NCBI RefSeq assembly: GCF_000321225.1
Contig: NW_004450323.1
Location: forward strand, 1,861,301-1,925,300
Origin: Odobenus rosmarus divergens
Taxonomy: Eukaryota; Chordata; Mammalia; Carnivora; Odobenidae
Direction: 5' to 3'
DNA length: 64,000 nucleotides
Positions 2,833 through 63,504 of this stretch are shown one piece after another. The notes under the pieces were generated by a model, which was given only the letters and a program-made list of their open reading frames with translations, did not search any database and had not been told where the DNA came from. The first letter of the stretch is position 1. Each line of letters begins with the position of its first letter. The translations under genes were made by a program, and so were the position numbers.

Positions 2833-3160
2833 CCCCCCCTTTTTTTTTTAAGTGAGCTCCTCGGGGCGCCTGGGTGGTTCAGTCGCTGGGCGTCTGCCTT
2901 TGGCTCAGGTCATGATCCCAGGGGCCTGGGATCCAGCCCCGCATTGGGCTTCCTGCTCAGTGGGGAGCCTGCTTCTCCCTCTCCCACTCCCCCTGCTTGT
3001 GTTCCCTCTCCTGCTCTCGCTCTCTGTCAAATAAATAAACAAAATATTTTTAAAAAATTAAAAAAAATAAAGTGAGCTCCTTGCCCAGTGTGGGGCTTGA
3101 ACTCACGCCACAGAGATCAAGAGTTGCATGCTCCACCGACTAAGCCAGCCAGGTGCCTCT
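2833..3160 (-). mobile_element. Old tRNA-derived SINE, split by a CanSINE
   Basis: Poly-T, AGTGAGCTCC, then ...GGGGCTTGAACTCACGCC...ATCAAGAGTTGCATGCTC...GCCAGGTGCC, an antisense tRNA-like head. Flanked by TCTTTTTAC (2824-2832 and about 3160-3168), a likely target duplication in the DNA transposon. Confidence 0.75.
2862..3069 (+). mobile_element. CanSINE (young) nested in older SINE
   Basis: Full SINE structure with an AT-rich tail, flanked by a perfect 12-bp target duplication AAGTGAGCTCCT (2850-2861 and 3070-3081). Confidence 0.92.
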
Positions 3161-5339
3161 CTTTTTACTTTTTAACATGGCTACCAGGAAACGTAAAATG
3201 GCATATATGGCTCACATTATATTTTAGATAGCAATGACCCAATAGAACCAAAGGAAGATTACTAGAAGCAGGCAGACCAATTAAGAGACTCTTTAGTAAG
3301 AGTCCAGATGAGACACAGGCCTGAATTATCCCAATTCTACCCATGTTCATAACCTAATTCAAGACCTACTACTACTTCTAAAAGCTTGTCCAATCATAAC
3401 CATTTCTAATGAGCTGCTTTTCTCAGAACTACTGAGGCACTTAATCTTCTGTAACATTTGCTTTAGTGCTTAATTTATCACCTGCCATTTCTACTTAATT
3501 TTGGGGTGAGCTGTTTCTCAGAACCATCAGCTGCTAGGCTAAGGGCCACAACTTAGGCATCTAATTTTCCACATCGTTTGATGCATTTTCAATACTTTTA
3601 ATAAACAGAGGTACACGGCTCCCCGGATATTCTGTCACAGTCTGGATACACCCTTGTGGCTAACTTTACCTTCTACAGCAGAAGGTATTGCCAATCTCTT
3701 CCTTCAGACACCTTAGGACATGAGCTAAAATGATATAAAAGTCAACGAAGAATCCAGGCCAATGTTCCAATACAACAGTGATATCTAATCAGTGAGCAAG
3801 CACTGGTAGACTATATTGGATCTATCAGGAAAAAAAGACCAAGATGGCAGAGCAATTTAGCATTTTCACAGATTCCATTAAAAATCAAGCAAACAAAAAA
3901 TTTCTGATTATCCCTGGTTTCCACCGCCAGAGATAACCTTTGCAACCTAAGCATTAAGAACTTTCATTCAAGGGAAAGACACACAGCTTTAACATTTAAA
4001 AATTAACCCCTAAACTAATCCTTCTAACAAATAACACATTTTCCAGGTAGAGAGCCACATATTACTAGTCAATCTGCAACTCAGCCTTTTCACATCTACT
4101 TTTAAGTAGGATGAAGGAAAAAACCTTTTAAGAAAATGTTAAAAAGTATATAAATATATTTTACCGTATCATGGATAACAAAGTACTTCACCTAAAGTAC
4201 CAAGTAAATTTTCTGAGAAGAATTCTTAAAAAACACACTCAAGCAACTGGTCAGCAGAAATAGGAGCTAGCAGCAACTAGTTGCAAGCAAAGAGACACTT
4301 CGTGGTTATTAGTACTGATCTGGGAACTTTGTAGTTCTCGGATTTTTTTTTTGTCTGTCATTTAAAACATAAAGCTGACAAGTTACAACAACCTGAGAAT
4401 CGACCTTTTTTTGCATTTGTTTAATGGCTACAAAGATAATAAATATAACAAAGTGCAAATAAAGTTTCTATCTCCAAACAATCGTGCAATCAAAGATGGA
4501 GTCAGGACAGCTCAGAGGGAAAAATAAGTTAAGGCAGTTCTGTTCTGAAAGGCTGGATAAGAAATGGGGGAAACCTGTCAAAGAGCCTGGATGAAATCAG
4601 GGAGTTAAAAAGAAAGCACTCACTTCCTTCAGCACTGTGGGAAAATCCCAGCTGCTAATAGAAAGCTGAGGAAAGTTTAGTTTGGCTGATTTCATTCTGT
4701 TTTCCTTCCAACATCATCGCCGAGTTCGAACGACTGCTTTCCTCCCCTCACATTACTCAGTAAAAACGCCCCCACTGAATTGAGTTGTCTTCCGGAGCCC
4801 TGCTCCCCCGCAGCCCAGCCTGCAAACGTGCTCAGACGCCTCTGGGCGTGTTGTGGTCTCACCACTCTGCGGGCCGGCGCTCCAAACTCAATGGACAATG
4901 GGAGCTCACCCCCATCAACGCCAACTACAAAGCTCAGGAGGGCCATTTCCCTTTTCCTGCCCAGATGCTGTTTTCCCTCCTTCGAAGTAAGGCCCCGTGC
5001 TCCACTAGAGCCCCAGCATGGGCTGGGGTCGCGTGTTTCCCTCCTCACCTGCAGAGCTGCTGATCCCCTCGAACCCCAAATAAGTTGTATCTCCGCGCAC
5101 GTCCCAAAAGGGATCCCCTTCCCCAGGGGCTTGGTTGAGGGCACGGTTTTCACAGTTCAGGTAGGACGCGGAGGGGATGTCTCTGGACGCTTGGTCATGG
5201 CCCTGCAAGCTAAGCCGTCCGCACTGTCCCCTCCCTAGCCTCCACTTGTCTCCCCTCCCCCTCTAGCGAGAAGAGCGGGGAGGTGCGGGCTGGCAGCACC
5301 GCCACGTCCTCCTCCAGTGGAGCCCACGGGGACACTCAC

Positions 5340-5374
5340 CCTTTCACCACAAAGAAGGGGTCCTCCATGGACAT
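5340..5374 (-). CDS. STX6: STX6 coding exon 1 (partial gene, 5' end only)
   Basis: On the minus strand an ATG at 5374-5372 opens the codons M-S-M-E-D-P-F-F-V-V-K-G, the N-terminus of syntaxin 6. The exon ends after AAAGG at 5340 and is followed by a consensus splice donor GTGAGT (5339-5334), splitting the Gly codon after its second base. Syntaxin 6 is a Qc-SNARE of the trans-Golgi network and endosomes; its SNARE and C-terminal membrane segments are encoded by exons beyond base 1 of the window. The exon sits in a CpG island, as expected for a housekeeping first exon. A second in-frame ATG (codon 3) is also conserved. The assignment rests on an exact 12-residue match, the donor site, and the position next to MR1 and IER5 as in human 1q25.3. 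Confidence 0.93.
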
Positions 5375-5600
5375 GGCGTCCCGGCCCCCGGCTGCCTCAC
5401 GCCTGCTCCGCGCACAGGGCGCCCTCCGAGCCCCCCTCTGCCCACCTCACCGGTCTGCCGCAGCCGCCGGCGCCTCGGCCTGGGGTACCCAGAGCAGCTG
5501 GCGCGCGCTGGCCGGGGCGCACCGGACCGCCGCCGGTCCAGCACTCGATCGCCCCGCGGACCGAACCCCGGACTCAGACGCCGGCCCCCGCGCCTGCCTC
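5375..5600 (-). other. STX6: Probable STX6 5' untranslated region
   Basis: GC-rich sequence immediately upstream (minus strand) of the STX6 ATG. The transcription start cannot be fixed from sequence alone: there is no TATA box, as is usual for a CpG-island promoter. The right-hand boundary is an estimate. Open frames crossing this stretch on both strands are products of GC-rich composition. Confidence 0.5.
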
Positions 5601-6017
5601 CTCCCCCGGCTCCTCCCGGCGCGTCTGGCCGGCTTGACCCCGCCCCCGGGACCCGCGGCCTCGGCCAACCACAGACGCCGCCCGTTGCACCACTTCCGCA
5701 CCCGCGCTCACGTGACCAGGGCCGGCCCCGCCCCCCGTCGGCGGGGCTTGGGCGCCGCGTCACGCAACCCTGGAGGCGGGGCTCGGAGGCGGGGCTCGGA
5801 GGCGGGTGGGCGAGAGCCGGAGTTCCTCCCACACCCTTGCCCACTCTGCTTGTTTCCTCCTGGGGGGCGATTAGGTTTTCAAGATATGCACTAGTACCTG
5901 ATTTGTACAATCCTTTTACCTTTCCTGTACTTTTAACACTTGATTTTGATAACATGATTTATAAATCCATCTTGTCCTTGCAATAAAGCGCGCTCATGTA
6001 CGTTTTCTGACTATGAT

Positions 6018-8775: not shown

Positions 8776-8954
8776 GGGCGCCTGGGTGGCTCAGTTGGTT
8801 AAGCGACTGCCTTCGGCTCAGGTCATGATCCCGGGACTCCGGGATCGAGTCCCGCGTCGGGCTCCCTGCTCAGCAGGGAGTCTGCTTCTCCCTCTGACCC
8901 TCCCCCCCATGCTCTCTCTCTCTCAAATAAATAAATCTTTAAAAAAAAAAAAAA
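8776..8954 (+). mobile_element. CanSINE with 14-bp target duplication
   Basis: Head GGGCGCCTGGGTGGCTCAGT, A-rich tail. Flanks GAAAGTAGGGGGTA (8762-8775) and GAAAGTACGGGGTA (8955-8968) differ by one base, indicating a fairly recent insertion. Confidence 0.93.
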
Positions 8955-8984: not shown

Positions 8985-10020
8985 TCCTTTTTTAAAAGTA
9001 ATTGAAAATGTTTTCCTTGTGGTAAAATACAAGTAACAAAATTTACCATCTTGACCATTTTTAAGTATACAGTTCAGTAGTGGTTAGTACACTCATAGTG
9101 TTGCTCAACCAATGTCCAGAACTCTTTTCATCTTTGCAAAAACGGAACTCTGTACCAATTAAACAACTCTCTATCCTCCCCTTCCCCCACCCACTGACAA
9201 CCAGCATCCTACTTTCTGCATCTGTGGATCTGACTACTGTAGGAACCCCATAACTGAAAGCATACAGTATTTGTCTTTTTGTGATTGCCTTATTTCACTT
9301 AGCATAATGTCCCCAAGGTTCATTCATGTTGTAGCATGTGTCAGAATGTCCTTCCTTTTTAAGGCTGGATAATATTCAGTTGTGTGTACATACCACATTT
9401 TGTTTATCTATTCATCTATCCATGGTCACTTGGGTTCCTTCTACCTTTTGGCTACCGTGGAATCATGAGGCATGACCATAGGTGCACAAATACTGCTTCA
9501 AGACCCTGCTTTCAATTCTTTTGGGTATATATCCAAAGTGGAATTGCTGGATCATATGTTAATTCTATTTTTAATTTTTTGAGAAACCACCAGACCGTTT
9601 CCACGGTGGCTGGACCATTTTACAATCCCACTAACAGTGCACAAGGGTTTCAATTTCTCCACATCCTTTCCAACACTTGTTATTTTGTTTGTTTGTTTGT
9701 TTTTAATAGTACTCATCCTAAAAGGTGTGAAGCAATATCTTGTTGTGGTTTTGATTTACATTTCCTTAATGATTAGTGATGCTGAGCATCTTTTTGTGTG
9801 CCTATTGACCTTTTGTGTATCTTCTTTGGCAAAATGTCTATTCAAGTTCTTTTTCTTTTTTAAGATTTTATTTTTAAGTAATCTCTACACCCAATGTGAG
9901 ACTTGAACTCACAACCCCAAGATCAAGAGTCACATGCTCTACCAACTGAGCCAGTCAGGCTCCCTTCAAATTCTTTGCTCATTTTTTGAGTTGTTTTTTG
10001 TTGTTGAGTTCATCCTAAAT
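8985..10020 (-). mobile_element. LINE-1 3' part, antisense
   Basis: Antisense L1 3'UTR and end of ORF2 (GTGGTAAAATACA..., CAATTCTTTTGGGTATATAT, CTCCACATCCTTTCCAACAC, GTGGTTTTGATTTACATTTC). Interrupted by an old SINE at 9848-9965. Open frames inside it are decayed. Confidence 0.85.
9848..9965 (-). mobile_element. Old tRNA-derived SINE inside L1
   Basis: TTTTTTAAGATTTTATTTTT then ...ACTTGAACTCACAACCCC...ATGCTCTACCAACTGAGCCAGTCAGGC, same family as 2833-3160. Splits the L1 at 8985-10020. Confidence 0.82.
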
Positions 10021-20352: not shown

Positions 20353-21802
20353 ATACTGAGAAGGTGTGAGAACTAACGTTCATGACTTGTTCTTCCTTCT
20401 GCCTCCCTCTCTGAACAGTTGGGTATCTGCAGAATCGCCACAAAACCTTTCCAGATGTGGAGAAATGGAAGAGTTTCAAAATTGGTTGCAGATTCAAGCA
20501 TATACACCTTTTGCAGATTCCAGACTAGGTGTAAATGAGATTTCAGCTCTGCTCCCCATTCGCCAGCCTGCACTTTCTGAAAAGTATTTTGAAAAGTATA
20601 CATTCCAGGTTAAATAGATTCATATTCATTTCAGCATCTTTCAAAGCAGAGAAATCAAAAGCTTTGCCAACAACTTAATTCACAAATATTTACGAAGCTC
20701 CTACCATGTGCCAAGCTCCCTGCGGCAGGCCTTGGCAGGAACCACAAAAGAAAGACACAAAGTCCCAGTCCTCAAGTGCCTTAGGATTGAGACTGGAGTA
20801 GAAGGTAAACAAAGATAAAGAGAATAGAAGGCAGAATATGATAACTACTGATTTGGGAGTAGTATTTGTACCGCTGCTTCAGTCTCTGGCTCTTAGTTAT
20901 AGAAGAACCAACACTTCCATGATGACAGACTCTTATCCCCAACTTGACAGCCTTCCACTGGGTTGCTTCCTCATCCCAGCCCTTATCCACCCAACCCCCT
21001 AGGAAGGAAAAAGGGGAAGAAAAAGCTGAAAGCAATGAAAAGGGGCCTTGAAGCCTTACATTCTTCCAGGCCTGGGGAAGACCAGACTCCTCCATCTTGC
21101 TCAGTGCTGCAGCTGATATGCAGGACCCCATTCCATGTGGAGGGGCCCACAGGGCTGGGTGCCTACTCTGAACCCAGCCAAGCTGCCCCCATCCCAGCTA
21201 GAGGAGCAGGGAGAAAGGAGAGGACAGTTCTGCTTTTATAGAACCTGGCCCAATCAGGCGGAAGGGGCCCTGGCTGTACCTGGTTCAGTCTCAGGGACTC
21301 CTGTCTTCCTTCGAGGTTAAGGTAATGGTAGCCTGGCCTTGCGGTGGCCCGTTCTCAAAGACAGTCTCCAGGTAATGAATGCTTTCAGAAACAGTTTTAG
21401 AAAAAAGGAAAGAATAGACAGACTTGCATGCACCAAAGCCGACCCAACCATTTTGTGAATGATTTTTTTAATTTGATATTTTTTCTTAAATATATATTTA
21501 TAAATAAAGGGGAAGGAGTCAACATCATTAAGTAGTATTCAGCCTGGGGAATGGGAGCCTGATGCAGTCCAAGGTTCCCTGCTGTGGCAAGGGCCACATG
21601 GGAAAAAAAGGTCTGAGTGCTAGGGGAGTTCCCAAAGGGACAAGAGCATTTGGGTGGGCGATCTGGAAACACTGTGGAGAGGTGGTGTCTAGTACGGTCC
21701 TTAGGCAAGAGAAGTCCCCGGACATGGACGTGACCCCACACGGTAGATGGCTCCACTCATCCACAGCCTTCCCCATGGAGCAAGGAAAAGCACCATGCTT
21801 TT

Positions 21803-22001
21803 TTTTTTTTTTAAAGATTTAATTTATTTATTTGAGAGAGAGAGAGAATGAGAGATAGAAAGCACGAGAGGGAAGAGGGTCAGAGCGAGAAGCAGACTCT
21901 CCGCTGAGCAGGAAGCCCGATGTGGGACTCGATCCCGGGACTCCAGGATCATGACCCGAGCCGAAGACAGTCGCTTAACCAACTGAGCCACCCAGGCGCC
22001 C
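21803..22001 (-). mobile_element. CanSINE, antisense, with perfect target duplication
   Basis: Poly-T, antisense body ending GAGCCACCCAGGCGCCC. Flanked by AAGCACCATGCTTTT at 21788-21802 and 22002-22016, identical copies, so a young insertion about 0.5 kb upstream of MR1 exon 2. Confidence 0.93.
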
Positions 22002-22068
22002 AAGCACCATGCTTTTAAAACACTTTTTCTTAGGAGGCCTGTGTCCTTAAGTGGGTTCTCTGACTGAT

Positions 22069-22501: not shown

Positions 22502-22721
22502 GGACTCGCTCACTGACATATTTTCGCCTGGGCATTTCAGATCCCAGCCATGGGATCACTGAATCTCTTTCTCATCCCATCATTACATATGAGTGTCTCT
22601 TCGCAGGAGGAGCCGTGGGCTCCATGGATGGTGGAGAACCCCTTGCCTGGTCACTGGGAGAGGTACACTCAGCTGCCGAGGGGCTGGAGCTGGAGCACCT
22701 GTAGTCACCGCGATCACTCAG
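22502..22721 (+). pseudogene. MR1: MR1 pseudogene exon 2 (alpha-1 domain)
   Basis: Begins after a TTCCAG acceptor (AG at 22500-22501). The frame reads [17 protein letters not shown] near the start, matching the alpha-1 N-terminus, and [18 protein letters not shown] further on, a hallmark MR1 segment. Compared with human MR1 recalled from memory there is an in-frame loss of about 18 nt after the 'TESLS' segment (VGYVDS missing). A 2-nt deletion follows in the 'TYDSV' region and shifts frame, then about 18 nt are missing after 'RGW'. A TAG lies at 22702-22704 (Gln codon), followed by another 2-nt loss near the end. The exon is about 220 nt instead of about 270. It ends at ...CACTCAG with a weak GTGGTG donor. 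Confidence 0.95.
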
Positions 22722-23369
22722 GTGGTGAAGGCAACAGAGATGAATGCTTGCCCTCACCAGCCCCCATTGCTGCAGAGAGGTCCTTGGGCTGACAGTGAAC
22801 ATGAGCAGTTGCTGAGTTACACTCTTTTGGCAAAGCCTGGACAATCTGGTCGGTCGTGTTCAGTGTCTGCCAGCTGCCCGAAGCATCTTCCAAATCCTTT
22901 CTTCCTCAGGAGCCCTTTGTCCTTTGCCCCCCATATCCTGATGCCATCCCCATTCAGGCTTCTAACCTGTATCTTCTCCTTTCTCATTCTAAATTTGGCC
23001 ATTCTGTGTCTCATTTCCTGGTGGCCGGGCTTAGTGAGCCACTTGATTATGCACAATGGCTTACTACATTAACTTTCCCAGGATATTTCTGGCTCTTGCA
23101 TATCTTCCTCTCCTTTATTGCATTATAAAATTTATAATCGATCGTTCCTATTATCAGATAATTCCCCAAGGCAAAAATTATCATGTTCCTATGGCGTGCA
23201 AATGTCTGTTGCTAGGTGGGTTATGTCACGGGAACATCCTGGAGGCATGCCTGTGGGATGATGTAATTGGGGGGCAGAGGATGCTTCCAGCCATACCCCC
23301 AGTCATCCACCGGATGCCCACCTTTATGTCTCTGTCTAACCCCCTTCCTGAACCACATGTGTGAGCCAG

Positions 23370-23640
23370 GGTTTCACACTTACCAGAGGATGACTGGCTA
23401 GGAGTTGCTGGAGGACAGAAGCACCACATTTGTCCAGCATGCCTATGATGGACAAGATTTCATTATCTTAAATAAAGATATCATTTTCTGGATGGCTACA
23501 GATAATATGGCTCACATCACCAAGTGGGCATGGGAGGCCAATTGGCATGAGTTATAATATCAAAAGAACTAGCTGGAAGGAGAACGTATTACCTCATTAA
23601 AGAGGTTCCTGGAGTATGGGGAAGATACTTACAAGGACAG
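23370..23640 (+). pseudogene. MR1: MR1 pseudogene exon 3 (alpha-2 domain)
   Basis: Follows an AGCCAG acceptor; the first base may be 23370 or 23371. Recognisable frames are HTYQR-like at the start, [13 protein letters not shown], then [14 protein letters not shown] and later KRFLEYGEDTY, all characteristic of MR1 alpha-2. Lesions: a 1-nt loss near the first codons, TAG at 23399-23401 replacing the first alpha-2 disulfide cysteine, a 3-nt deletion before the 'F-Q-A-Y' segment, TAA at 23555-23557 and TAG at 23570-23572 (a Trp codon). The donor GTAAAG at 23641 is intact. Exon length (about 271 nt) is near the family norm, so decay here is mainly by substitution. Confidence 0.95.
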
Positions 23641-24304
23641 GTAAAGAAAAGGGAGAACACCAGGTCCCCAGAGGCCTTGGTTTTATATAGAACTTCCTCT
23701 AATCTAGCTTATAGTCACCCTATTCTGAAATCCATCTTGTGAGTTGCACTGTGGTGATCTGTAACTCCCTGTGAAAACTTCCCTTAGTTATTTTTTATCA
23801 GCATCTGGACAAGATTCAGCAATTCCACCTGTCTTGATGGTGGAGTACCTTCAGGGACACCTCTTTTTTGGGGTATCCGTTGAGACCAATCCTTCCATCT
23901 CCTGTCAATGATAAGCTGGGAAATACTTTGGGAGGTGGAGCAATCCTCATTTACCAGGGGCTCACACAAGACCAGTATGAGTGAAAATCTGGTCTTACAA
24001 AGAAGACAAATAGAGAGTCTTTGCTTTACTAAAGGATTTATGTTAAGATTTCTTTCAGTAAAAAGCTCATCAGAGATGAGACTCAATCAGTCCACTTTTA
24101 TTTAATGCAGACTTTTCACTTATAATCTTATTATTTAAAAAAAATCTTATTATTTAAAATGCATTTATGTCTGTAACATGCTATGGGTAACTCCTGGACA
24201 CAATGCGCCTTTTCCCACTGGAGTTATCTTTAATGGTGGGACTTTCCAGAGCTGTGGTGGGCCTTGGAAAGACATCTGGGTCACAGTTAACGAATGTAGA
24301 CTCT

Positions 24305-24385
24305 CTGTCTAAGGGTATCGGCTTTGGAGGCAGATGACTAGAGTTGGAACTTCAACCCTCCCACTCATTGGCTGACTTAGCCATC
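24305..24385 (+). mobile_element. MIR fragment
   Basis: GGCTTTGGAGGCAGATGACT...CTCATTGGCTGACTTAGCC. In intron 3 of the MR1 pseudogene. Confidence 0.65.
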
Positions 24386-26430
24386 TGAACTGCAATGGTT
24401 GCAGGTAACAGAAACCTACTCAGACTGGCTTAGACACAAAGAGGGAAGCTATTTGGAAGGCAGGAATCAGGGCAGTGTGAGGACCCAAGGAATTTAAACC
24501 AAGATTCAAATGAGGAGGGGATGTGGCCGCCAGCATAAAGCTCAGAGATACCTTCAGCCCTTCACCATTCCAGAAGAATGGGCTTCCCTCTCCCCGCTCT
24601 GGTTACAAAACTTTTTTTTTTCACAGGAGAACTGTGGTTGGTCTGAACTGCATCACAGGCCACCCCTCGGACTCATTGCTGTGACCATCCGGAAGAGTGT
24701 CTAAGATCGGCTGTGGGTAACAGAGTCCTGGTAAGAAGTAAGTGACATACTCAATGTGATTTAGCCGAGGAGAATTCAATGACAGGATTATGCACAGAGG
24801 GACCATCAGGATTGAGGAAACCCAAAGTCAGGTACCCAGAGGTGTGCAGCAGAGGGAAGCTGTTACATCCCCAAATCTGAAGGGGCAGGCGAAGGCAGGG
24901 GCCCTTGAAGAAGCGCCTTCTAGCAAGTCCTGTGCCTCTGGAGAAACACAGCCACTGGCAGACTGCAGTGAGATGCTTGGAGAACAGGTCCCTGAGAACC
25001 CCAACCTTTCTCTCCTCTGGCTCTCTGACGTTTGCTGAGGATGTTCCTCCTAGCCAGCGGCCAGACCCGGCCAGGCCAGGGAGCCCTGGAGGGGCAGTCT
25101 GAGGAGCACAACCTTCCAGGGCACAATACAGAGCAGAAGCTGGGTCTGGGGGCTAGCAATGAGAGAGTAACCAGTGCACGACGGGCTGTGCTTGAGTTCC
25201 AGGATTAAGATTGGTACTTCTCAACAGAAGCACACATTGGAGTCAGGAGAACTGATTTTCCAATGTATGTTATCTGTTTGTCAGGAGCAGGGGTTCCTCT
25301 TATCAGAAAAAAGTGGAGCTCATAGATGCTAAGGCGGCAAAGCAGTAATCTTGAGTAAAAGAAACAGTTGTGATAATGCCTACATCCCAGAAACTGGTGT
25401 GAAAAATGTGCATGAAAGCACTTAGTACAGATAGTTCTCTGCTTACACATTACATCTCATTATTGTTGCCAGGCTGAAGAAGTTCTGACAGCTTGGGATC
25501 TGGCTGAAATCTGTGGCCAATGTGGGGTTGTACTAGACCCTCAGTCACTGAGACATTGTAAGCCAAAGCTAGGTATGAAGTGGGGCCCTAGGAGTCTCCA
25601 CTCCCAGATCTTGATGAGTGGCATAGCCTTGGACTGCAAACAAAGAGAACCCTTCGTTGCCTGGCCTCCTGCTCTCAGGGAAGGGAGGGAAACTGGAGAG
25701 ACAGTAGGAAAACTGGAACAGAGTTGCTATCAGCTGGGATTTGAGGGTTAATACTAATCCTGTTGGTTCTCTCTGGGACGAGGAGCTCTTTGGAAGGAAA
25801 GGGGAGAACCTGGACTCCCAGGTTGTGTGGGAAGAGTATGGAAAGAATGGCTTCAGTGTATCTGCTCCCCCTCCCATTAGGACCATGAGTGTCATAATAG
25901 GCTCTCAACTCTTTGGTCAAAATCCATTCTTAGAAAAGTATCTGGGAACGATTTCTTCCGAGCACTGTCAAAAAGCAGTATCTCTCCTTGTGGCATTCAT
26001 ATTTTATTTTTCATGTTGGGAAGCCTTTTTTTCCTGCGAAATTTCATGCCTCAGGAAAAATAGAAGGAAGGTGTTGTTGAGGTAAAGCTCTTCCCTGTAT
26101 CTGACGGCCAGATAGCAAGGTGGGGGGGGGGTGGTGTGTGTGTGTGAAAAGGTGAGGCCTCCAGACGAGCAGGAGGCAGCCCTTCTAAGATGCCGTCAGG
26201 CTCTGTATGGCTCACATCTGGATGGGACCCAATTCAGAGGGAATATTAAGAACAGCACCATCTGGAAAATTAGTAGAAGAGTCCAGAGGAAGGAAGGCCC
26301 CCAAATAGACAGTTTTTTGTTGTCACTTCTAGAGCCCCTTTGTGATATGAATTTCTGGAATTCCTTCGAGGGCATAACCACAACATGATCTATTGATTAC
26401 ATATGTTTGTTTCCGATGACAGTCACTGTT

Positions 26431-26672
26431 TTAGTCCATTTGGCTGTATAACAAAACACCATAGCCTGGGGAAACCTAAAACCATAGAAATGTATTTCTC
26501 ACAGATCTGGAGACTGCAAGTCTGAGATGAGGGTGTCAGTGTGGTCGGATGGGGGCCCTCTTCTCAGTTGCAGACTGTGGGCTTCTGATGGCATCCTCAC
26601 GTGATAGAATTGGGCCAAGGATCTCTCAGAGCCTCTTCTATAAAGCACTAAGCCCATTCATGAGGGTTCCAC
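26431..26672 (+). mobile_element. MaLR-like LTR fragment
   Basis: TTTAGTCCATTTGGCTGTAT...TCACAGATCTGGAGACTGCA...CCCATTCATGAGGGTTCCAC. In intron 3 of the MR1 pseudogene; a truncated CanSINE follows. Confidence 0.65.
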
Positions 26673-26683
26673 TGGCATGACTT

Positions 26684-26776
26684 TTTTATTTTATTTTATT
26701 TTTATTTATTTGATACAGAGAGAGAGAGCACAAGTAGGCAGAGTGGCCGCAGAGGGAGAGGGAGAAAGCGCCAGCC
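26684..26776 (-). mobile_element. CanSINE, antisense, 5'-truncated
   Basis: T-rich/TTTATTTATTTGA tail complement followed by the GA-rich tract and GGGAGAAAGCG, then the match ends. Lies in intron 3 of the MR1 pseudogene. Confidence 0.75.
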
Positions 26777-26834
26777 CAAGGACACCAGGCAGCTCAGAGC
26801 CAAAGCAGAGCCGCATTGGCTGTGATATCTCTTT

Positions 26835-26975
26835 GCGCTAGCACGGAATTGAGAGTAAGGAAGCCTGAGTTCTAATCTCCAGGCTTTTGCTGAATTACTC
26901 ATCACAGTCACACACGTTGTAACTCAGTTTTCCTTTCCTGTGACTCATAAGAGTATTTCAAAGGTTAACAGTAAA
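26835..26975 (+). mobile_element. MIR fragment
   Basis: GTAAGGAAGCCTGAGTTCTA...CTCAGTTTTCCTTTCCTGTG. In intron 3 of the MR1 pseudogene. Confidence 0.6.
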
Positions 26976-27258
26976 TGATCCTGACACACTTTCCAAACAC
27001 TCAAAACTATGTGGCTTTTCCCCCGCTTGGAGGACAGAACATGGCTCAACTCCACGTTCGTCCTTCCCCAGCATGCTGCCCTGGTAGGAGGTACACAAAA
27101 AATACGTTTGTTGTTGACAGACCTGGGCTCTGGGTCATTCTTGGTTTTAGATGTTTCCTGCAATAAAGAAAATAAATTGGGAGACCCAGTTGCCAAGTTC
27201 TAGTACTGTATGCTCTGTACCTACGATACTTGCACTGAACGTTATTTCTTCTTCCTAG

Positions 27259-27531
27259 AGCCCCCACCGGTCAGAGTAAATCACAACTTTTCCAAGGATT
27301 ACAACTCCTTTCTGCAGAGTTCATGGCATGGGGAGGGGGGGCAGAAATTTGCATGATCTGGTTGAAAAATGGGGAAGAAATTTTCCAAGGAATAGTTTAG
27401 GGAGACATTCTTCCCAATGGGGATAGAATCAATCGGACATGGGTATCAGTTGAGCTGGATCCTCAGATCGGTGACCTCTACTCCTACCCAAGCAGACTGT
27501 AGCCTCTGCGTGGTTCTTCAAGTCCCCCAGG
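27259..27531 (+). pseudogene. MR1: MR1 pseudogene exon 4 (alpha-3 Ig domain)
   Basis: Starts after CTTCCTAG (AG at 27257-27258) with P-P-P-V-R-V-N-H. Frames W-L-K-N-G-E-E-I, V-S-V-E-L-D-P-Q and V-V-L-Q-V-P-Q at the end match the Ig-like alpha-3 domain. Lesions: about 5 nt lost after 'VNH' (frameshift), a G-run (27335-27342) replacing the 'GFYPPE' region, TAG at 27398-27400 (Tyr codon), loss of the second alpha-3 cysteine (TGT to TAC) and a scrambled 'CHVEHCG' region. The expected donor is AT at 27532-27533 (GATAAGG), so normal splicing to exon 5 would fail even without the stops. Length about 273 nt, near normal. Confidence 0.95.
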
Positions 27532-28108
27532 ATAAGGATGGGTTGTGGCTGTCTGGGGAGCGAGAGGGAGGGAAAGGGCAGAGCAGGAAACACTGCGTGC
27601 TTTTTTCAATCAGTGGTTCTCTCTCTCTTTGGCCTTAGAGCACCTTTATTCTTAATTATTGAGTACGCCAAAGAGCTTTTGTTTTGGTGGGTTATATCTA
27701 TTGCTATTTACTGTATTACAAATTAAACATTAAAAAGATGTTTAAGTACAAGAAAACACAAGCTCATATCTATTGACCGTCAGAGAGATGATGTCATCAT
27801 GTGTCATGTAGCCTCCAGAAAACTCCACTGGGCACATGAGAGAGATGGAGATTAAAAGAAACAGGGAAATCATGATTTAGACCTCATGGACTCCCTGAAA
27901 GGGTCTTGAGGCCCCTGGGGCATTCAGATCACACTTTGAGAACTGCCTCCTCTGTTTTCATTTATCATCCTACCCGGAGCTGTGAAGTGAGAAGTGTCAG
28001 TAAGATAAGTAGGGCTGGGCTTCCTGCAGATCACAGGGACACGTCCCTAAAAGTTGGCAGAGAAGGGGAGGAGGGCTTGTGGAGTTCTCCTCACTTGCTG
28101 GCTTTTAG

Positions 28109-28210
28109 AACCAGAAACGATCAGCCGAAGGTCCATCGTGGGAGGGGCTGGAGTTGGTGTCCTAGCGGCCGGGGGGGCGGGGGGCGGCGGGCAGAAGGCC
28201 CCATGGCTGT
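28109..28210 (+). pseudogene. MR1: MR1 pseudogene exon 5 remnant (connecting/transmembrane)
   Basis: After CTTTTAG (AG at 28107-28108) the sequence AACCAGAAACGATC resembles the start of the MR1 membrane-anchor exon. GGCTGGAGTTGGTGTCCTAG at 28145-28164 matches the codons for A-G-V-G-V-L within the transmembrane helix, and AGAAGGCCCC (28193-28202) matches the basic R-R-P segment after it. Much of the helix coding sequence between is deleted, and a G/C-rich block (28165-28191) sits where the membrane-to-cytoplasm junction should be. The right end is approximate; no clear donor is seen. Assigned by these islands of identity and by order between exons 4 and 6. Confidence 0.75.
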
Positions 28211-29391
28211 GAGGCAGGTGGAGGCGGGACTCTAGGGGCCACAGATTGTCTCTCCTGCAGCTCCACACAGTCTCATTTTCTGCACCAGCCACTCCAAGCT
28301 CCATTTACAAATGGGTTGGGCCTCACTTTGCGATCACAGGAGGACCAGGAACACCGCTCCCACGATAGAGGAAAGCACACCATGGTTAGAGCTTGCAAGG
28401 AAAGGGGCGCCTGACCATGACAAAGCCCAGCGCCCAACCAGGTGAACCACCCTCAGAGAAGCTGAGTCAGAGAAGGTATGGCGATCTTGATTGGTCTTTT
28501 TCCAAACTCTATCTTTATTATTAGTTAATATCAACTTTTGAGGGAATTTTGTCCTTGGTTTCAAGACTTTAGTAAGTTTTCCCATTTTGACACTTTTTCC
28601 TCCCAATCATGTGAAAATCCTTTTCTTTCTAAAATCATCGTTCAACACATGAAATGTTGAAGAGTAGATACCTTTGGAAAATGGGATTCAGGGGAAGGAA
28701 AAATGGGAGATATATAGGCTCTTGATACTTTGGGGGAAAATTAATTCATTCAATAACTATGTATTTAATACCTACTATGTCCTGGGCACCGCACTGGATT
28801 CTAGAATATAGCAGTGCAAAGGACAGACATGATTCCTGCTGTCAGAGAGTTTACAGGCTAGTCTTATAACATCATTCCCCTGCCTCCGGCTTGTTTAGGT
28901 GCACAAACTGATCACAGCATAATATTGATGAGACCTGGATTATGGGTTTGAACCCACTGTGGGCTAGGAGTTTGGCTTTGCTTCATAACCACAGACTTCA
29001 ATCTCAATTCAGGTGATACTGTGCAAAGCATGTTATTAGAACAAAGTAAAACCAGCCCCTTTACTAGAAAATCAACTCAGGAGTTAGTGAGTCATTGATG
29101 TTTTCTTTATAAAGTAGAGCACTAATCCCAACCCAATAAGAAATAGCTGCTGAAGAAAAAAGAAATTAGCAATGACATACCCCTTTCAAGACTGATACAC
29201 ACTGTGAGTTCCTTCTTATCTCGTGGAGTTTGTGAATTTGAGTTAAAATTTGTCAAGTACTAAGAGAATCTTGACAAAGCGGGCTAAAAATGTCAATGCT
29301 GGCTTCTCAGATTTTGCTGAACATTGCATAATTTGTTTTTGAGCTATAAGGAAAATTGCATATATCTGACTAAAAACTTTTCCTTTCAAAG

Positions 29392-29430
29392 CAAAATGGA
29401 GTCATCAACCTTTTTACACCAGATCAATGA
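29392..29430 (+). pseudogene. MR1: MR1 pseudogene exon 6 (cytoplasmic tail and stop)
   Basis: After a pyrimidine-rich tract ending TTTCAAAG the frame reads Q-N-G-V-I-N-L-F-T-P-D-Q then TGA (29428-29430). This matches the last twelve residues and the stop of MR1 with only conservative changes and no indel. It is the one exon with an open frame, probably because it is short. It anchors the 3' end of the locus. The sequence after it may include old 3'UTR, but I cannot delimit that. Confidence 0.88.
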
Positions 29431-39235: not shown

Positions 39236-39957
39236 GAAGGACAGTGCAGCAAGTCAGTTCAGTTATGATACTTGTAATTATCTGGCTTACATGAAACTAG
39301 TTCCATGTAGAGTTTAGCCAAATAGTGGAACTAACAGTGTTAGCTTGTTAAAGTGATCTGTGCCTATTACTATAACTACCCAAATACTCTTATTTAGAAA
39401 AATCCCATTTAGTTTGCAATGGGTAGACTGTAAATTAAGATAGTTAAGGGGACCCATTAACAGTGGAATAATCAGAAAAATCTGTATTTTTAGAATTAGG
39501 TAATCTCATAGTAATTCGTTTGAGGAGTATTGGGGGCATTTCCACTGCTTTAAAACCCCATAGAGGAAAAAGTGCAAGGTATTTCGTGCGTGGATCTTGC
39601 TGCTGTCTTTCATAATTCGAAAGATGCCCCCACCTAAGGTTAGCATCACCTTCCTATGTGACCGAAAATCTCATCACTGGGTGGTGAGGAGCTCAAGATG
39701 ATTTGAACTTAAAGTCTCTTTGCCCCAGCAGGAGAACCACCCCTTAAGACTAACTACCCTTCAACCATTCTGATTGTTGGGTTCTCGAGCTGGTTTCCTT
39801 GCAGTAACTGTTTTCTAGAGGGTCAGAGCTGTGCCTGAATCTACAGGTAAATCAGCCATTTTTCTGGGGCTCCTAGTGACCTAAGGGGAATGACTAATGC
39901 TTCCCATTATGACAGTACTGGCCAACATAATGAATGAACTCCAGCTGTTTATTTCTT

Positions 39958-40156
39958 TTTTTTTTTTTTTAAGATTTTATTTATTTATTTGACAGAGAGA
40001 GAGACAGTGAGAGAGGGAACACAAGCAGGGGGAGTGGGAGAGGGAGAAGCAGACTCCCTGCTGAGCAGGGAGCCCCATGCGGGGCTCGATCCCAGGACCC
40101 TGGGATCATGACCTGAGCCAAAGGCAGTTGCTTAACGACTGAGCCCCCCAGGCGCC
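39958..40156 (-). mobile_element. CanSINE, antisense, 19-bp target duplication
   Basis: Flanked by CTCCAGCTGTTTATTTCTT at 39939-39957 and again at 40157-40175, identical, so recent. Confidence 0.93.
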
Positions 40157-40564
40157 CTCCAGCTGTTTATTTCTTAGGGGCAGTTCCTCATGGAATGTAT
40201 CCACGTATTTGGTTGGGCAAGATGGCCACAATCTCAACTCGCTTGGTGTGCATTTGTAAATCTAACCCTGGTCGGTTTTGTCCACAAGAGCTCTTCCAGG
40301 CTCTCTTCACTCAGGCTCCCTGCTTGACCTCACCCCATTTGCCTCCAAATTCACAGAGAAAGCTGAGGTTCTCAGAAGCTCCTTAGCTCCTAGCCCAAGC
40401 CATCTCCCCCTCACCTCCTTCCCTTCAGCCTCAGTGGAGTATTCTACTCTGTTCTGGGCTGGTCCCCCTCCAAGGCTCTAGATCCCCTCCTTTACTGACC
40501 TCCCAAGACTTTCTCCACCAATTATCCCTCTCCCTGCTGCAGCTTTAGCTTCACAGACTGGTGC

Positions 40565-46709: not shown

Positions 46710-47640
46710 ATGGACTTGACTGATGAATTAGAATTCGCGCTATTAGTTTCAGCGATTAGAACGGGAGTGGGGAGAAGAGGCGAGATTTCCGTACTGGCTG
46801 AAGACATATAGGTTGCCCTTAAAGGAGGTGCTGATACCCAGCGGGGTTTTCAGTACATCATTAATCCATAATGAATGTTTAATCAGAACAGAGTAGGCCA
46901 GCAATTACTTTCTCAGTAATAAAATCACACATTGGTAAATAGCATGGCAGAAAAAGCAAACTATCAAAAATCAACTTATTTCATGTGAAAAAATAGCTTT
47001 TATAGGGAAAAGGTGGAGCTTAGGGTCATGAATAATAATGAGCTAGGATAAGATAAAATGTATTTGATGTGATATTTTGGTTAATATGCCACTAAAGTAA
47101 TGTATGTGGAGTACTCTTTTTTTACCCTCTTGTTGTCTATGTTTAAAGAGTTTAGCATCAGATTTGCAGAGCCCATTAAAAGCTTGTTTATCAACTAGTT
47201 ATTGATCCCTCGATATGTACATAGCAATATTCAAGCTTCTGGGTGTAGAAGAGGCAGGATACAAAGAAAGTATAATGTAGCATTTTCCCAGCACTTGAAT
47301 GTTATTGGGAAATGAGAAATATATCCACACAAAGTTAAATAGATACTATGCAAGTAAATAAAACACAGAAATACAAAGGTTATAGATAACAAGTGGTATT
47401 GTGGTTTTCAGTAACAAATGACGAGTATGTGTGCCCAAGTGAGAACACTGTAAATACCAGTGGGCATGGACGGCTTCCTGGAGGAAGTGATGGTGCAGAA
47501 TTTGGGCAGGAAGGGAGAGGGCATTCTGTTAAGGAAGTAGAAGATAGACATACACTTTTTGATTAGACCTGTCTAGCTGGGAAAGAGATGGGTCCTTTAT
47601 GTTGTTCAGGGTACTAGAAAGGTTGAAAAGGTTTGCCCAG

Positions 47641-47841
47641 GGTGTCTGGGTGGCTCAGTTGGTTAAGCGACTGCCTTCAGCTCAGGTCATGATCCTGGAG
47701 TCCCAGGATCCAGTCCCACATCGGGCTCCCTGCTCAGCAGGGGGTCTGCTTCTCCCTCTGACCCTCTTCCCTCTCGTGCTCTCTATCTCTCATTCTCTCT
47801 CTCTCAAATAAATAAATAAAATCTTAAAAAAAAAAAGAAAA
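47641..47841 (+). mobile_element. CanSINE with 16-bp target duplication
   Basis: Full element flanked by GAAAAGGTTTGCCCAG (47625-47640) and GAAAAGGTTTGCCTGG (47842-47857). Confidence 0.92.
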
Positions 47842-47925
47842 GAAAAGGTTTGCCTGGATTCATAGAATCTCGGAATTCTAGACCTGAAGTGATCCTAAAA
47901 CAATCATATCTAGTCCGCTGGTTCT

Positions 47926-54648: not shown

Positions 54649-55864
<1,216 letters not shown>

Positions 55865-59205: not shown

Positions 59206-59397
59206 AAAAATATGTATATGTATATATTTATTTATTTATTTGAGAGAGAGCATAAGCGGGGGAAGGGGCAGAGGGAGAGGGGGAGCCGACTACCGGCCAA
59301 GCAGGGAGGCCGATATGGGGCTGGATCCCAGGACCCTGGGATCATGACCTGAGCCAAAGGCAGACACCCAACTGACTGAGCCACCCAAGCATCTATG
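59206..59397 (-). mobile_element. CanSINE, antisense
   Basis: TATATTTATTTATTTATTTG tail complement to GAGCCACCCAAGC. TAAAGTGCTTT flanks at 59195-59205 and 59398-59408. Confidence 0.9.
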
Positions 59398-62300
59398 TAA
59401 AGTGCTTTTTGATGAATACTCCAAGAAGATCACATTGATAGTGAATAAGGTGATTAGTTTTGGTATAATGCTTCTTAAACATGTCACTTTAAACGTATCT
59501 TCCCTCTCAGAAATCATTGATTGTATTTGGGGAAAGGAACTCATGATGGAAAGCTTGAACTGCCCCTCCTCGGCAACTGGATTTTCTCTAAGGCACCTAG
59601 TAGAGTAATAATAACCTTTCTATCCCTATCATTCATCACTGATTGGATTTGGGGATGAGAAGTGGAAAGGAATGGGCTATTTGGTAACGTTGGTAGAATT
59701 CTCAGACTAAAGATAAAGTAAATATTGGGAACGGAATTAATAATGACAAAACTCCGTTTTATCACTGGATTGGTCTGAGTCTCTTCCCTCAACTTGCTGG
59801 CATGACAACTCAGCTTAGAGCCTGTGAAATGGGGTTGAAAGGCTAATACCCATTGTGACATGGAGTTTGATGGACATTTATTTCCTTATACTTTTTTTAA
59901 AAGTAGAGTTAGTTCAGTTCACTGAATAACCAAAGAACTTCTGATCTGCCCTAAATATTCTTGCCCTGTTTGTGATTTTTTTATTCTTGTAGGCTCGCTT
60001 TTATCCCAGCAGTTACTGAAAGAAGACGAGAATGAAAAGAAACAGTGATCCAACCCTCCCGTGACTATGAAAGAAGCCATTACTATTAGGTGTAGAACTC
60101 CGGTGGGAGTGAGGACTGCTTCCCAAGATTCCTGGCACTCTTTCCAGTAATGAGCAGTTTGTTTCTCAGCCTTTGAACCATTTATTCACATTTAAAATTC
60201 TACCCAGTGGAAAGCCTTGGGAGGAAAAATAGAGTAGAAGTAGAATCGATGTTAGGTATCATTGTGATCTTAACTCCTGTCCTTGGAGTTTTTTAGTAAC
60301 AATTCTTGAGGGTATAGAGAAGAGAATATGTGAGAGCAGAAAGTATAAAAGGATACCCACATCTAGTAGAATGCCTCCTTCCCGATCCAAACACAGTTTT
60401 TCCCAATGGCTGCCACCACCCCCTCCCCCGGCAGGAACGAGGGTTTTAAAAATAAAACTCTTCTCTAGCTCTCAGAGGAATATAGCCCAAAGCGTCTTTG
60501 CTGGACCATATCCTAGGGTTTATCTCAGACATTTGGAATCTTACAAGCAGGGAGGGAGAAGCCTCCTGGGACTGCATTCCTAAAAGGGCCTCTCCCTCTT
60601 CCCTACTCTACTGATCAGCATCTTCCAACACTGGATACTGACCGCTTATGGGCAGGTGAGCGAGTTCTGGCTATCAGCTTTTGAAAACTGCAGGAAGAAG
60701 GGCTGATCCCCGTCACTACCACTGAGCGTCTTCAGCAGGTGTTTCTCTTAAGGGTCTAACATAAAGTAGGCCCACGATATTTCTTGATAAATCTACTTAT
60801 TTATAAAATAAAGTTTTCTGGGACCTGGTCACAAGAAGCCACCATGCCTGTGTGATAAGCCACATCCCTAACTTACAGAATGAAGGTCAGACCCAGCTTT
60901 CCCCTTTCTACCCATTTAGCACCAAGTCAGCCCTGGTCTCCCTCTGCTTTCTCCGTATGAACTTGAGCCTCTCTCTGCCAGGCTGCCCTAGCCCCTCATT
61001 CTCCTAGATGCCAAGGCAAGGCTCCTTTCGGTTTTTCTAGAACTCGGATGTGCCAAACGCCATGTGTCCCCACCTGCTCGTTTTTCATTCCATTCATTCT
61101 CTCAAGTCTTGGGGCAGGGCAGGCTGCTGGAAACTTGCTTTCTCTGAGGTAAAAGAAAACCATTCTGTTCCCTCTGCTCGAAGCACTGAAGTTGTCTCTG
61201 AAGGGCAGGATTTCCTTTGGCTACTCTCCGTACTTGATCCCTTTCCTGGATCCCATTTGAGTTTTTCTCTGGGTTGATCCACCTCTGCATGGCTCTTTCT
61301 TTCTCACCAGTCACAGCATCACCCTGCCCTTGGTGGCATAGATACTTCCTTCAGTGCTGTAGTTGTCTTTCCTATCTGTCTGGGTCCTAGTCCTCCCTCC
61401 ACCATCTCCTGAGGACACTCACATTCATTGTTTACCTGGGCAAGAGTCTGAGTGCCCAGGGAAGAGTTGTGATGGGGAAAGATGGAATGGAGTTGGATTT
61501 CTTGACCTTGAGACGTGCAGAATCTCCAGAGATCAAGCACAGCTGTGGTAGCTGGTCGCCCAATCCCGGTGCCTCGCCAGACCCCCAATTCCATCATAAT
61601 AGCAGGGGGTGGGTTTGGGAGTATCCATCTAGAAACAGGAGCAGCTGCTGAAAAACAGCCTGGCTTGTGGCCAGCTGGAGGGAAGGAGAGGCAAAGCCAG
61701 GGGAGCCCAAACTTGGGCTACACAGCATTTCCACTCCCCCTTTCCTGGAACTGCATGTGCCGCTTTTTAGAACAGATAATGAATCACAGAGCTGCTCTGA
61801 TGAAGAAATCCAAAAGTGCCTCTTTGCCTTGTCTCCCCCTCCAGGCTTTGATTAATAGAAACTTTTTACAGTGGGTTACCAGAAATGAGAGTAGGGGAAT
61901 AGTAATAATCCCGCTGGAATCCTGCAACAGAGGAGACTGGTAGGAAGTGAGTTAGACCGACCCTGTGAAGAGATCCTGTGGGGTGGGGGGCAGTCATTGG
62001 GAGGAATTGCCACTGAGTCAAGTTCTGCTCTCCTGCGTGGAGCTAGGCTACTACTCTTTGGCATGCAAGGCAAAAGAGAAATGGGATGATAGCTAGAGAG
62101 GTCAGTTGAAAGGGCCTGTGCATGTCTTAAGACAGAACCAACCAGAAACAACCAAATTAAGGTGAATGGGGCTTGAATATATAAACTGCTTAAGTATGCA
62201 TCTCTTTATCAGAAGGAATAAACACTTTCTTTTCCTTCTCCTGTCAATGAATCCAGGGCAGGAGCACCCCACCCACTTTTTTCTCCCCAGCTTTTCTCAA

Positions 62301-62911
62301 GCTGCACCCATTTTCTTTAGACAATTTCCAAGTTCTATTTTTGGTTTGGAAAAGGGTGAAAGTGCCTTGGCATCTGCATTTATCAGCTTGCTCTCTCTCT
62401 GTGTGACCTACTTTAGAGACTGGAGTTGCTTTTATTTTTATGGCTATGGGAGAAATCCCTGAAAGCAAAAATCAGTTTCAGAAGCTGAACTTAAGGGACA
62501 TGGGACACTATGTTGAGGTGGTTATTACTCTATGATTTCTGTGGTTTTCTCCCCCACCCCCCGCCAACCCTACCCCACCCCACTTCCTCTTCACATATCT
62601 TTTTAAGAGGTGCTTCTAAACAGTACCGGCTAAGTTGCAGAGATGCCATGTGAGGGCGATTCTGGCATGTGGGCTGGCCCAGCTGTGTGCTTCCCAACCT
62701 TTGAGTCACCTCAGCATCAGGCATCTGGCCTCCTAACATGAAGCTTGCAGCTCCTTAAGGCTCCTGAACTTGCCTGTGAGAGAAGGAGACAGAGGGGAGA
62801 GTCTCCTATTTATTAGTCAGGAAAGAGTAAATGAGGTCCAGAAAGTGAGTAGGTCTTCTTGAGCAGTCAGGTGAGAACCCAAGCAGAGGCAGTGTTAGAA
62901 TTCACCCTGGA

Positions 62912-63108
62912 GGGTGGCTGGGTGGCTCAGTCATTAAGCGTCTGCCTTCCGCTCAGGTCATGATCCTGGGGTCCTGGGATCGAGTCCCACATCGGGCTCT
63001 CTGCTCAGCAGGAAGCCTGCTTCTCTCTCTCCCACTCCCCTTGCTTGTATTCCCTCTCTTGCTGTGTCTCTCTCTCTGTTAAATAAAATCTTTAAAAAAA
63101 AAAAGAAA
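62912..63108 (+). mobile_element. CanSINE with 15-bp target duplication
   Basis: Flanked by identical AGAATTCACCCTGGA at 62897-62911 and 63109-63123. Confidence 0.93.
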
Positions 63109-63504
63109 AGAATTCACCCTGGACCAGTCCTTGGGACCCCTCTGAGGAATACGTGGACCAGAATCTGAAATGTGACTCACTATTTGGAGAATCATTCATT
63201 TTTCTTGGTTTCTATTTATAGTCCAAAAAAAGAAAAAAGAAAAGAAAGGATCCACTTGCCTCATGATTGTGATGTGAAGATAAATTAGTGTTTGGAAAGC
63301 AAAGCTAGAAGATATAAACAACTCAGCCCTGGGTCCTATCAATTAAGTATTCACAGGAACACCCAGAAGGAATTCATCAATGGGGAACACGAAGATGCAA
63401 ACAATAGCATCCTGGTTCTCAAGTCGGATTACATTCCAGATGAGCTACAAAAACAATGCAGAAAACCCCAGGAAACCTGACAGTAGTTAAGTGTGATCTA
63501 GCCC

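Follow-up and report, generated by a model that had tools for sequence, protein, structure and literature searches.

MR1 displays bacterial vitamin-B products to mucosal-associated invariant T (MAIT) cells, and the question raised by the locus described here is whether a carnivore carries at this site a working MR1 gene, a copy that died in place, or exons that merely resemble MR1. The stretch analyzed (64,000 nucleotides of contig NW_004450323.1 from Odobenus rosmarus divergens; hereafter, the window) contains an MR1 remnant at 22502–29430 on the plus strand, in which the alpha1, alpha2, alpha3, transmembrane and tail exons follow one another in order, with introns present, between STX6 exon 1 (minus strand) and an intact IER5 gene (plus strand). 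We regard it as almost certain that this is the orthologous, dead MR1 copy of a pinniped-like carnivore, which decayed in place after selection ended.

Position and Identity of the MR1 Remnant

MR1 has been described as embedded between STX6 and IER5 (PMC5002277), and the remnant occupies the same interval in the window. An earlier note on this DNA, made from the letters alone, had proposed five MR1 exons in order, with introns, on the expected strand and between these two genes. Tblastn, base-level alignment and both flanking genes bear out this layout, and the outer coordinates that it gave, 22502 and 29430, coincide exactly with those of the exon alignment. Because the exons are separated by introns and the STX6–IER5 synteny is retained, a retrocopy was ruled out.

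The human MR1 protein used as the query agrees with PDB entry 8bp6 across residues 23–291. With this query, tblastn found exons 2–4 only (expect value (E) = 5 × 10−17, 2 × 10−33 and 1 × 10−13 for exons 2, 3 and 4, respectively), and, in a control with the window reversed, the best MR1 match had an E of 0.28. Exon boundaries, as well as exons 5 and 6, were obtained from a base-level alignment with the human MR1 coding sequence, to which 711 of 859 aligned bases (82.8%) were identical. When the exon read-through was compared with the PDB, 15 distinct MR1 sequences came first (309.8–328.6 bits), and a class I antigen followed at rank 16 (142.7 bits; best 60 of 497 matches). The stop-free alpha2 piece also matched 15 distinct MR1 sequences first (59.3–68.8 bits), the next being a class I antigen with 38.9 bits (best 60 of 475 matches), and it was the one piece among seven stop-free pieces in which Pfam detected MHC_I (2.7 × 10−10).

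In a 26-row tree, the window sequence was grouped with mammalian MR1 (support 100/100), inside the placental group (83/90) and apart from the rows of HLA-A2 and of reptile and bird class I molecules; another tree, built from 39 MR1 rows, concurs with this placement. At the columns filled by the window, 161 of 234 residues were identical to human MR1, compared with 199 of 234 for horse. Thus, the remnant is closest to MR1 among class I-like molecules, retains the exon–intron structure of the gene and lies in the interval where its orthologue is found. The MR1 identity proposed in the earlier note accordingly holds on PDB bit scores, tblastn matches and both trees.

State of the Exons

The lesions were read in the base alignment, and all of the exons lie on the plus strand. 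Pseudo-exon 2 (alpha1; 22502..22721, located by tblastn and base alignment) has lost 18 nucleotides in frame after 22572, 2 nucleotides after 22591 and 19 nucleotides after 22684, with further small insertions or deletions (indels) near its 3′ end; its AG acceptor and GT donor are still present. Pseudo-exon 3 (alpha2; 23370..23640, located by tblastn, PDB and Pfam matches and base alignment) contains stops at 23399, 23555 and 23570, a 3-nucleotide deletion after 23427 and single-nucleotide deletions after 23627 and after 23632, and retains both splice sites. Pseudo-exon 4 (alpha3; 27259..27531, located by tblastn and base alignment) has a 5-nucleotide deletion after 27284, other indels and stops at 27398 and 27500, and its splice donor reads AT, the GT having been lost. 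In pseudo-exon 5 (transmembrane; 28109..~28213, base alignment, 3′ end approximate), the membrane segment is destroyed by several deletions and a G-rich insertion, and the chosen 3′ end has no clear GT donor. Exon 6 (cytoplasmic tail; 29392..29430, base alignment) is unbroken, with 12 codons followed by a stop, and 32 of its 39 bases are those of the human exon. AG acceptors persist at exons 2–6, and exons 2 and 3 also retain their GT donors. The claim that every coding exon but the last is disabled agrees with this record, in which exons 2–5 bear lesions and the 12-codon exon 6 bears none, and the presence of lesioned exons at the ancestral STX6–IER5 site likewise upholds the view that the gene was inactivated where it stood and not deleted.

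No open frame runs through alpha1–alpha3 and the membrane segment. Lys43 of MR1, which forms a Schiff base with the ligand (PMC11514058), is replaced in the window by glutamate, whereas lysine stands at this position in all 32 functional rows, including 4 from marsupials. The 106 columns found to be invariant across 28 placental rows (human and 27 rows chosen from the best 120 of 735 matches to human MR1, 6 of the 27 being unnamed and counted as placental by tree position) are kept in the window at 71 positions, changed at 23 and lost at 12. Mismatches to human in exons 2–4 were spread evenly over the codon positions (43/248, 43/247 and 42/249 for positions 1, 2 and 3, respectively), with a nonsynonymous rate (dN) of 0.162 and a synonymous rate (dS) of 0.307 after 5 stop codons among 236 codons had been dropped. 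Most likely, the remnant has no function.

A search for the leader exon upstream of exon 2, as far as STX6 exon 1, yielded nothing that exceeded the shuffled controls, although a short diverged exon could escape detection. Human exon 1 DNA gave a score of 74 there, compared with a median of 79 and a maximum of 103 in 100 block shuffles, and the best real plus-strand match to four leader peptides reached 16.2 bits, compared with 20.0 bits for the best of 20 shuffles. The Nyctereutes procyonoides protein model P0243 starts with an MR1-like leader (MVLSLPLIIILTVKHS), unlike anything found in the window; a leader exon may survive in canids.

Comparison with Other Carnivore Remnants

A protein search with the read-through yielded 77 matches, three of which bore carnivore names, namely, Lycaon pictus (P0241, labeled as low-quality MR1), Lontra canadensis (P0242, low-quality, with an HLA-like name) and Nyctereutes procyonoides (P0243, an unnamed product of 167 residues). 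Their scores (210, 162 and 160 bits, respectively, compared with 370 for the best match) fell below those of the full-length MR1 of other mammals because the models are short. The window was grouped with the three models in both trees (100/99 with a stem of 0.20 in the 26-row tree; 100/98 with a stem of 0.19 in the 39-row tree), and its closest row by identity was that of Lycaon (76% across 153 columns). Together with the IER5 identities given below, this grouping upholds the carnivore origin that the stretch had been assigned from its letters.

Like the orthology, position and lesions of the gene, derived residues common to the window and to the dog-family and otter remnants are directly observed: among the invariant columns changed in the window, the same derived residue occurs at 5 of 13 comparable columns in Lycaon, 5 of 14 in Lontra and 4 of 11 in Nyctereutes. 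In alpha2, the Lycaon and Nyctereutes models each lack one residue at the 3-nucleotide deletion of the window, and the tail INLFTPD is common to exon 6 of the window and the Nyctereutes model. By eye, the Lontra model passes from RG almost directly to ELEH at the 19-nucleotide deletion of the window, a junction that, in a protein model, is suggestive only. The tree grouping, the long common stem and the common derived residues fit one old loss before the split between dogs and arctoids.

Alternative Explanations

That the gene works and its lesions arose in sequencing or assembly is a negligible possibility, and no point in support of it was found: the lesions are of many kinds and extend over four exons, the 23 changed and 12 lost columns are accompanied by derived residues common to other carnivores, and IER5 and STX6 exon 1 of the same window are clean. 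It is scarcely more credible that the exons stem from a class I gene other than MR1, whether classical, CD1-like or HFE-like, and merely resemble it. HLA-A2 does align to exon 3 with 59.7 bits, as is expected between paralogues, but MR1 scores 124 bits on this exon, and both trees, as well as the STX6–IER5 position, place the sequence with mammalian MR1. A closer likeness to a different class I gene was what the earlier note had named as fatal to its reading; the read-through gave 310–329 bits with MR1 and 143 bits with the next class I molecule, and another class I origin was rejected on these scores and the trees. A functional MR1 at another site in the genome, which would make the window copy non-unitary, is very unlikely. 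The members of the protein-search clusters are not all named, and three unnamed exon-3 proteins (P0244–P0246) stand on a long branch and were unplaceable in the 39-row tree; therefore, the protein search by itself leaves room for an intact carnivore copy. However, the window copy lies at the ancestral site, the very place to expect a functional copy, and no carnivore name appears among the best 120 of the 735 matches to human MR1, in which names are shortened. The label "unitary" is drawn from the literature, which reports no functional MR1 in Carnivora, and from the protein search, in which the three carnivore-named matches among 77 are all broken or truncated models. A dead orthologous MR1 remains by far the best account of the locus: the gene would have decayed where it stood through ordinary frameshifts, stops and splice-site loss once selection on MR1 had stopped.

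How often MR1 died in carnivores is a separate matter. It is probable that a single death occurred, either on the carnivoran stem or at any rate before the dog–arctoid split, and well before the diets of living carnivores and the pinniped move to sea. Several points weigh against this conclusion. At the changed columns, the ancestral residue is kept at 4 of 13 positions in Lycaon, 4 of 14 in Lontra and 4 of 11 in Nyctereutes, which indicates that each lineage underwent some decay of its own; within the carnivore group, the window pairs with the canids rather than the otter in the two trees (93/83 and 98/80), contrary to the species tree; the carnivore sequences compared are protein models of broken genes, so that common frame-breaking lesions were inferred and not read in DNA; and the set was confined to dog-family and otter models (Lycaon, Lontra and Nyctereutes). 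An independent loss in each carnivore family after the split would account for the many changes that are not common to the window and the models, and for the four ancestral residues that each model keeps where the window has changed. Nevertheless, it is an unlikely alternative in view of the long common stem of 0.19–0.20 and of the common derived residues at otherwise invariant columns. Dating from dN and dS, with functional pairs assumed to differ at 16% of their amino acids and 52% of dS assigned to the carnivore side, gives 0.68 as the unconstrained fraction of the carnivore branch, which also speaks against independent losses, but the bootstrap range (0.34–1.36) is too wide for a usable date. 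With a single old death as the preferred account, the loss would have occurred on the stem of Caniformia or of all Carnivora alongside that of TRAV1, and an animal lacking both would be without MR1-restricted MAIT cells. If so, the remnants in several families are complete enough for the loss to be ordered by common lesions and compared with that of TRAV1.

Flanking Genes, Repeats and Side Observations

The coding part of STX6 exon 1 (MSMEDPFFVVKG; 5339..5374, minus strand) was identified by tblastn, all 12 of its residues being those of human STX6 (E = 0.015), and a GTGAGT donor follows it; the fraction of G and C across 5100–5700 is 0.72. IER5 (54899..55864, plus strand) has an intact open frame of 321 codons and was identified from its list of protein matches, the tblastn match being circular (the query peptide came from the open frame of the window itself) and not relied on. 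Its identity was 96% to a cluster headed by Neomonachus (monk seal), 90% to Ursus (brown bear), 87% to both Panthera (tiger) and Lontra (river otter), 82% to Camelus and 79% to Canis (wolf), a ranking that only partly follows kinship, since Camelus stands above Canis. These identities indicate that the animal is most likely a pinniped, which need not be the monk seal itself.

A piece of a carnivore-type short interspersed nuclear element (SINE) lies in MR1 intron 3 (26683..26762, minus strand; repeat families D3 and D5) and is possibly longer. Further copies occur on both strands at 2863–3039, 7355, 8776–8952, 17303, 19358, 21783–22016, 39940–40173, 47640–47846, 59222–59413 and 62911–63111. 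Diagnostic words of arctoid-like CAN-SINEs are present in the window, and canid and felid words are absent; the taxonomic assignment is based on IER5 and not on these words. A full match to lysine transfer RNA (tRNA-Lys, CTT; 9888-9960, minus strand, 43.8 bits) overlaps repeat family D10 and is possibly a tRNA-derived repeat, not a working tRNA gene; the Rfam scan of the window gave nothing beyond it.

Among whales, the MR1 models of Megaptera (P0069) and Monodon (P0104) are labeled low-quality and have stretches of the alpha domains missing, and that of Balaenoptera physalus (P0087) is a partial hypothetical protein. To judge from such models, MR1 may be decaying in some cetaceans too; a literature search joining MR1, MAIT and cetacean produced no match.

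Relation to Published Knowledge and Known Systems

Carnivore MR1 is described as pseudogenized or lost, with reference to Boudinot et al. 2016, whose MR1 pseudogenes came from cat, dog, ferret and panda (PMC5002277, PMC11514058). According to PMC11514058, TRAV1 was lost in lagomorphs, armadillo and carnivores, the same species in which MR1 was pseudogenized or lost, as the earlier note had stated for carnivores; the same paper proposes that the loss of TRAV1 relaxed selection on MR1 and poses the reason for the loss of MAIT cells in carnivores as an open question. For these groups, PMC11190491 likewise gives TRAV1 as missing and MR1 as lost or inactivated, and carnivores and lagomorphs are said in PMC7991102 to have lost MR1; the text of PMC12562908 reads CD1, apparently in place of MR1. 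Dogs reportedly lack MR1 and TRAV1 and yet have MAIT-like cells that use another TRAV gene (PMC9995359). The whole words pinniped, seal, walrus and sea lion do not occur in the main text of five of these papers, and a literature search on MR1, MAIT, pseudogene and pinniped had no "pinniped" among the matches listed. The kind of finding is thus already known, and the locus is a clear but expected example of it, although a pinniped MR1 pseudogene may be unreported. What is added is an exon-by-exon record, in pinnipeds, of a published gene loss, and the accepted picture is unchanged. The loss of MR1 is tied to that of MAIT cells, and, given the MAIT-like cells reported in dogs, the locus bears on how the gap was filled.

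The nearest known counterparts are the carnivore pseudogenes of Boudinot et al. 2016, which are of the same gene, order and state, with no functional copy reported; the present lesion list comes from the window itself. The three carnivore protein models group with the window and have derived residues in common with it, but differ in other changes; the one-residue alpha2 deletion is common to the window and the two dog-family models, and the leader-like start of the Nyctereutes model has no counterpart found in the window. The functional placental MR1 genes of human, horse and cattle have the same exon order, AG acceptors and most of the GT donors, whereas the window lacks their open frame and has lost or altered K43, W69, W156 and the membrane segment. 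The second MR1 copy of primates (Parra-Cuadrado 2000, 2001, via PMC5002277) is also an MR1-derived pseudogene, but it accompanies a functional MR1 as an additional copy, whereas the dead copy in the window is the ancestral one.

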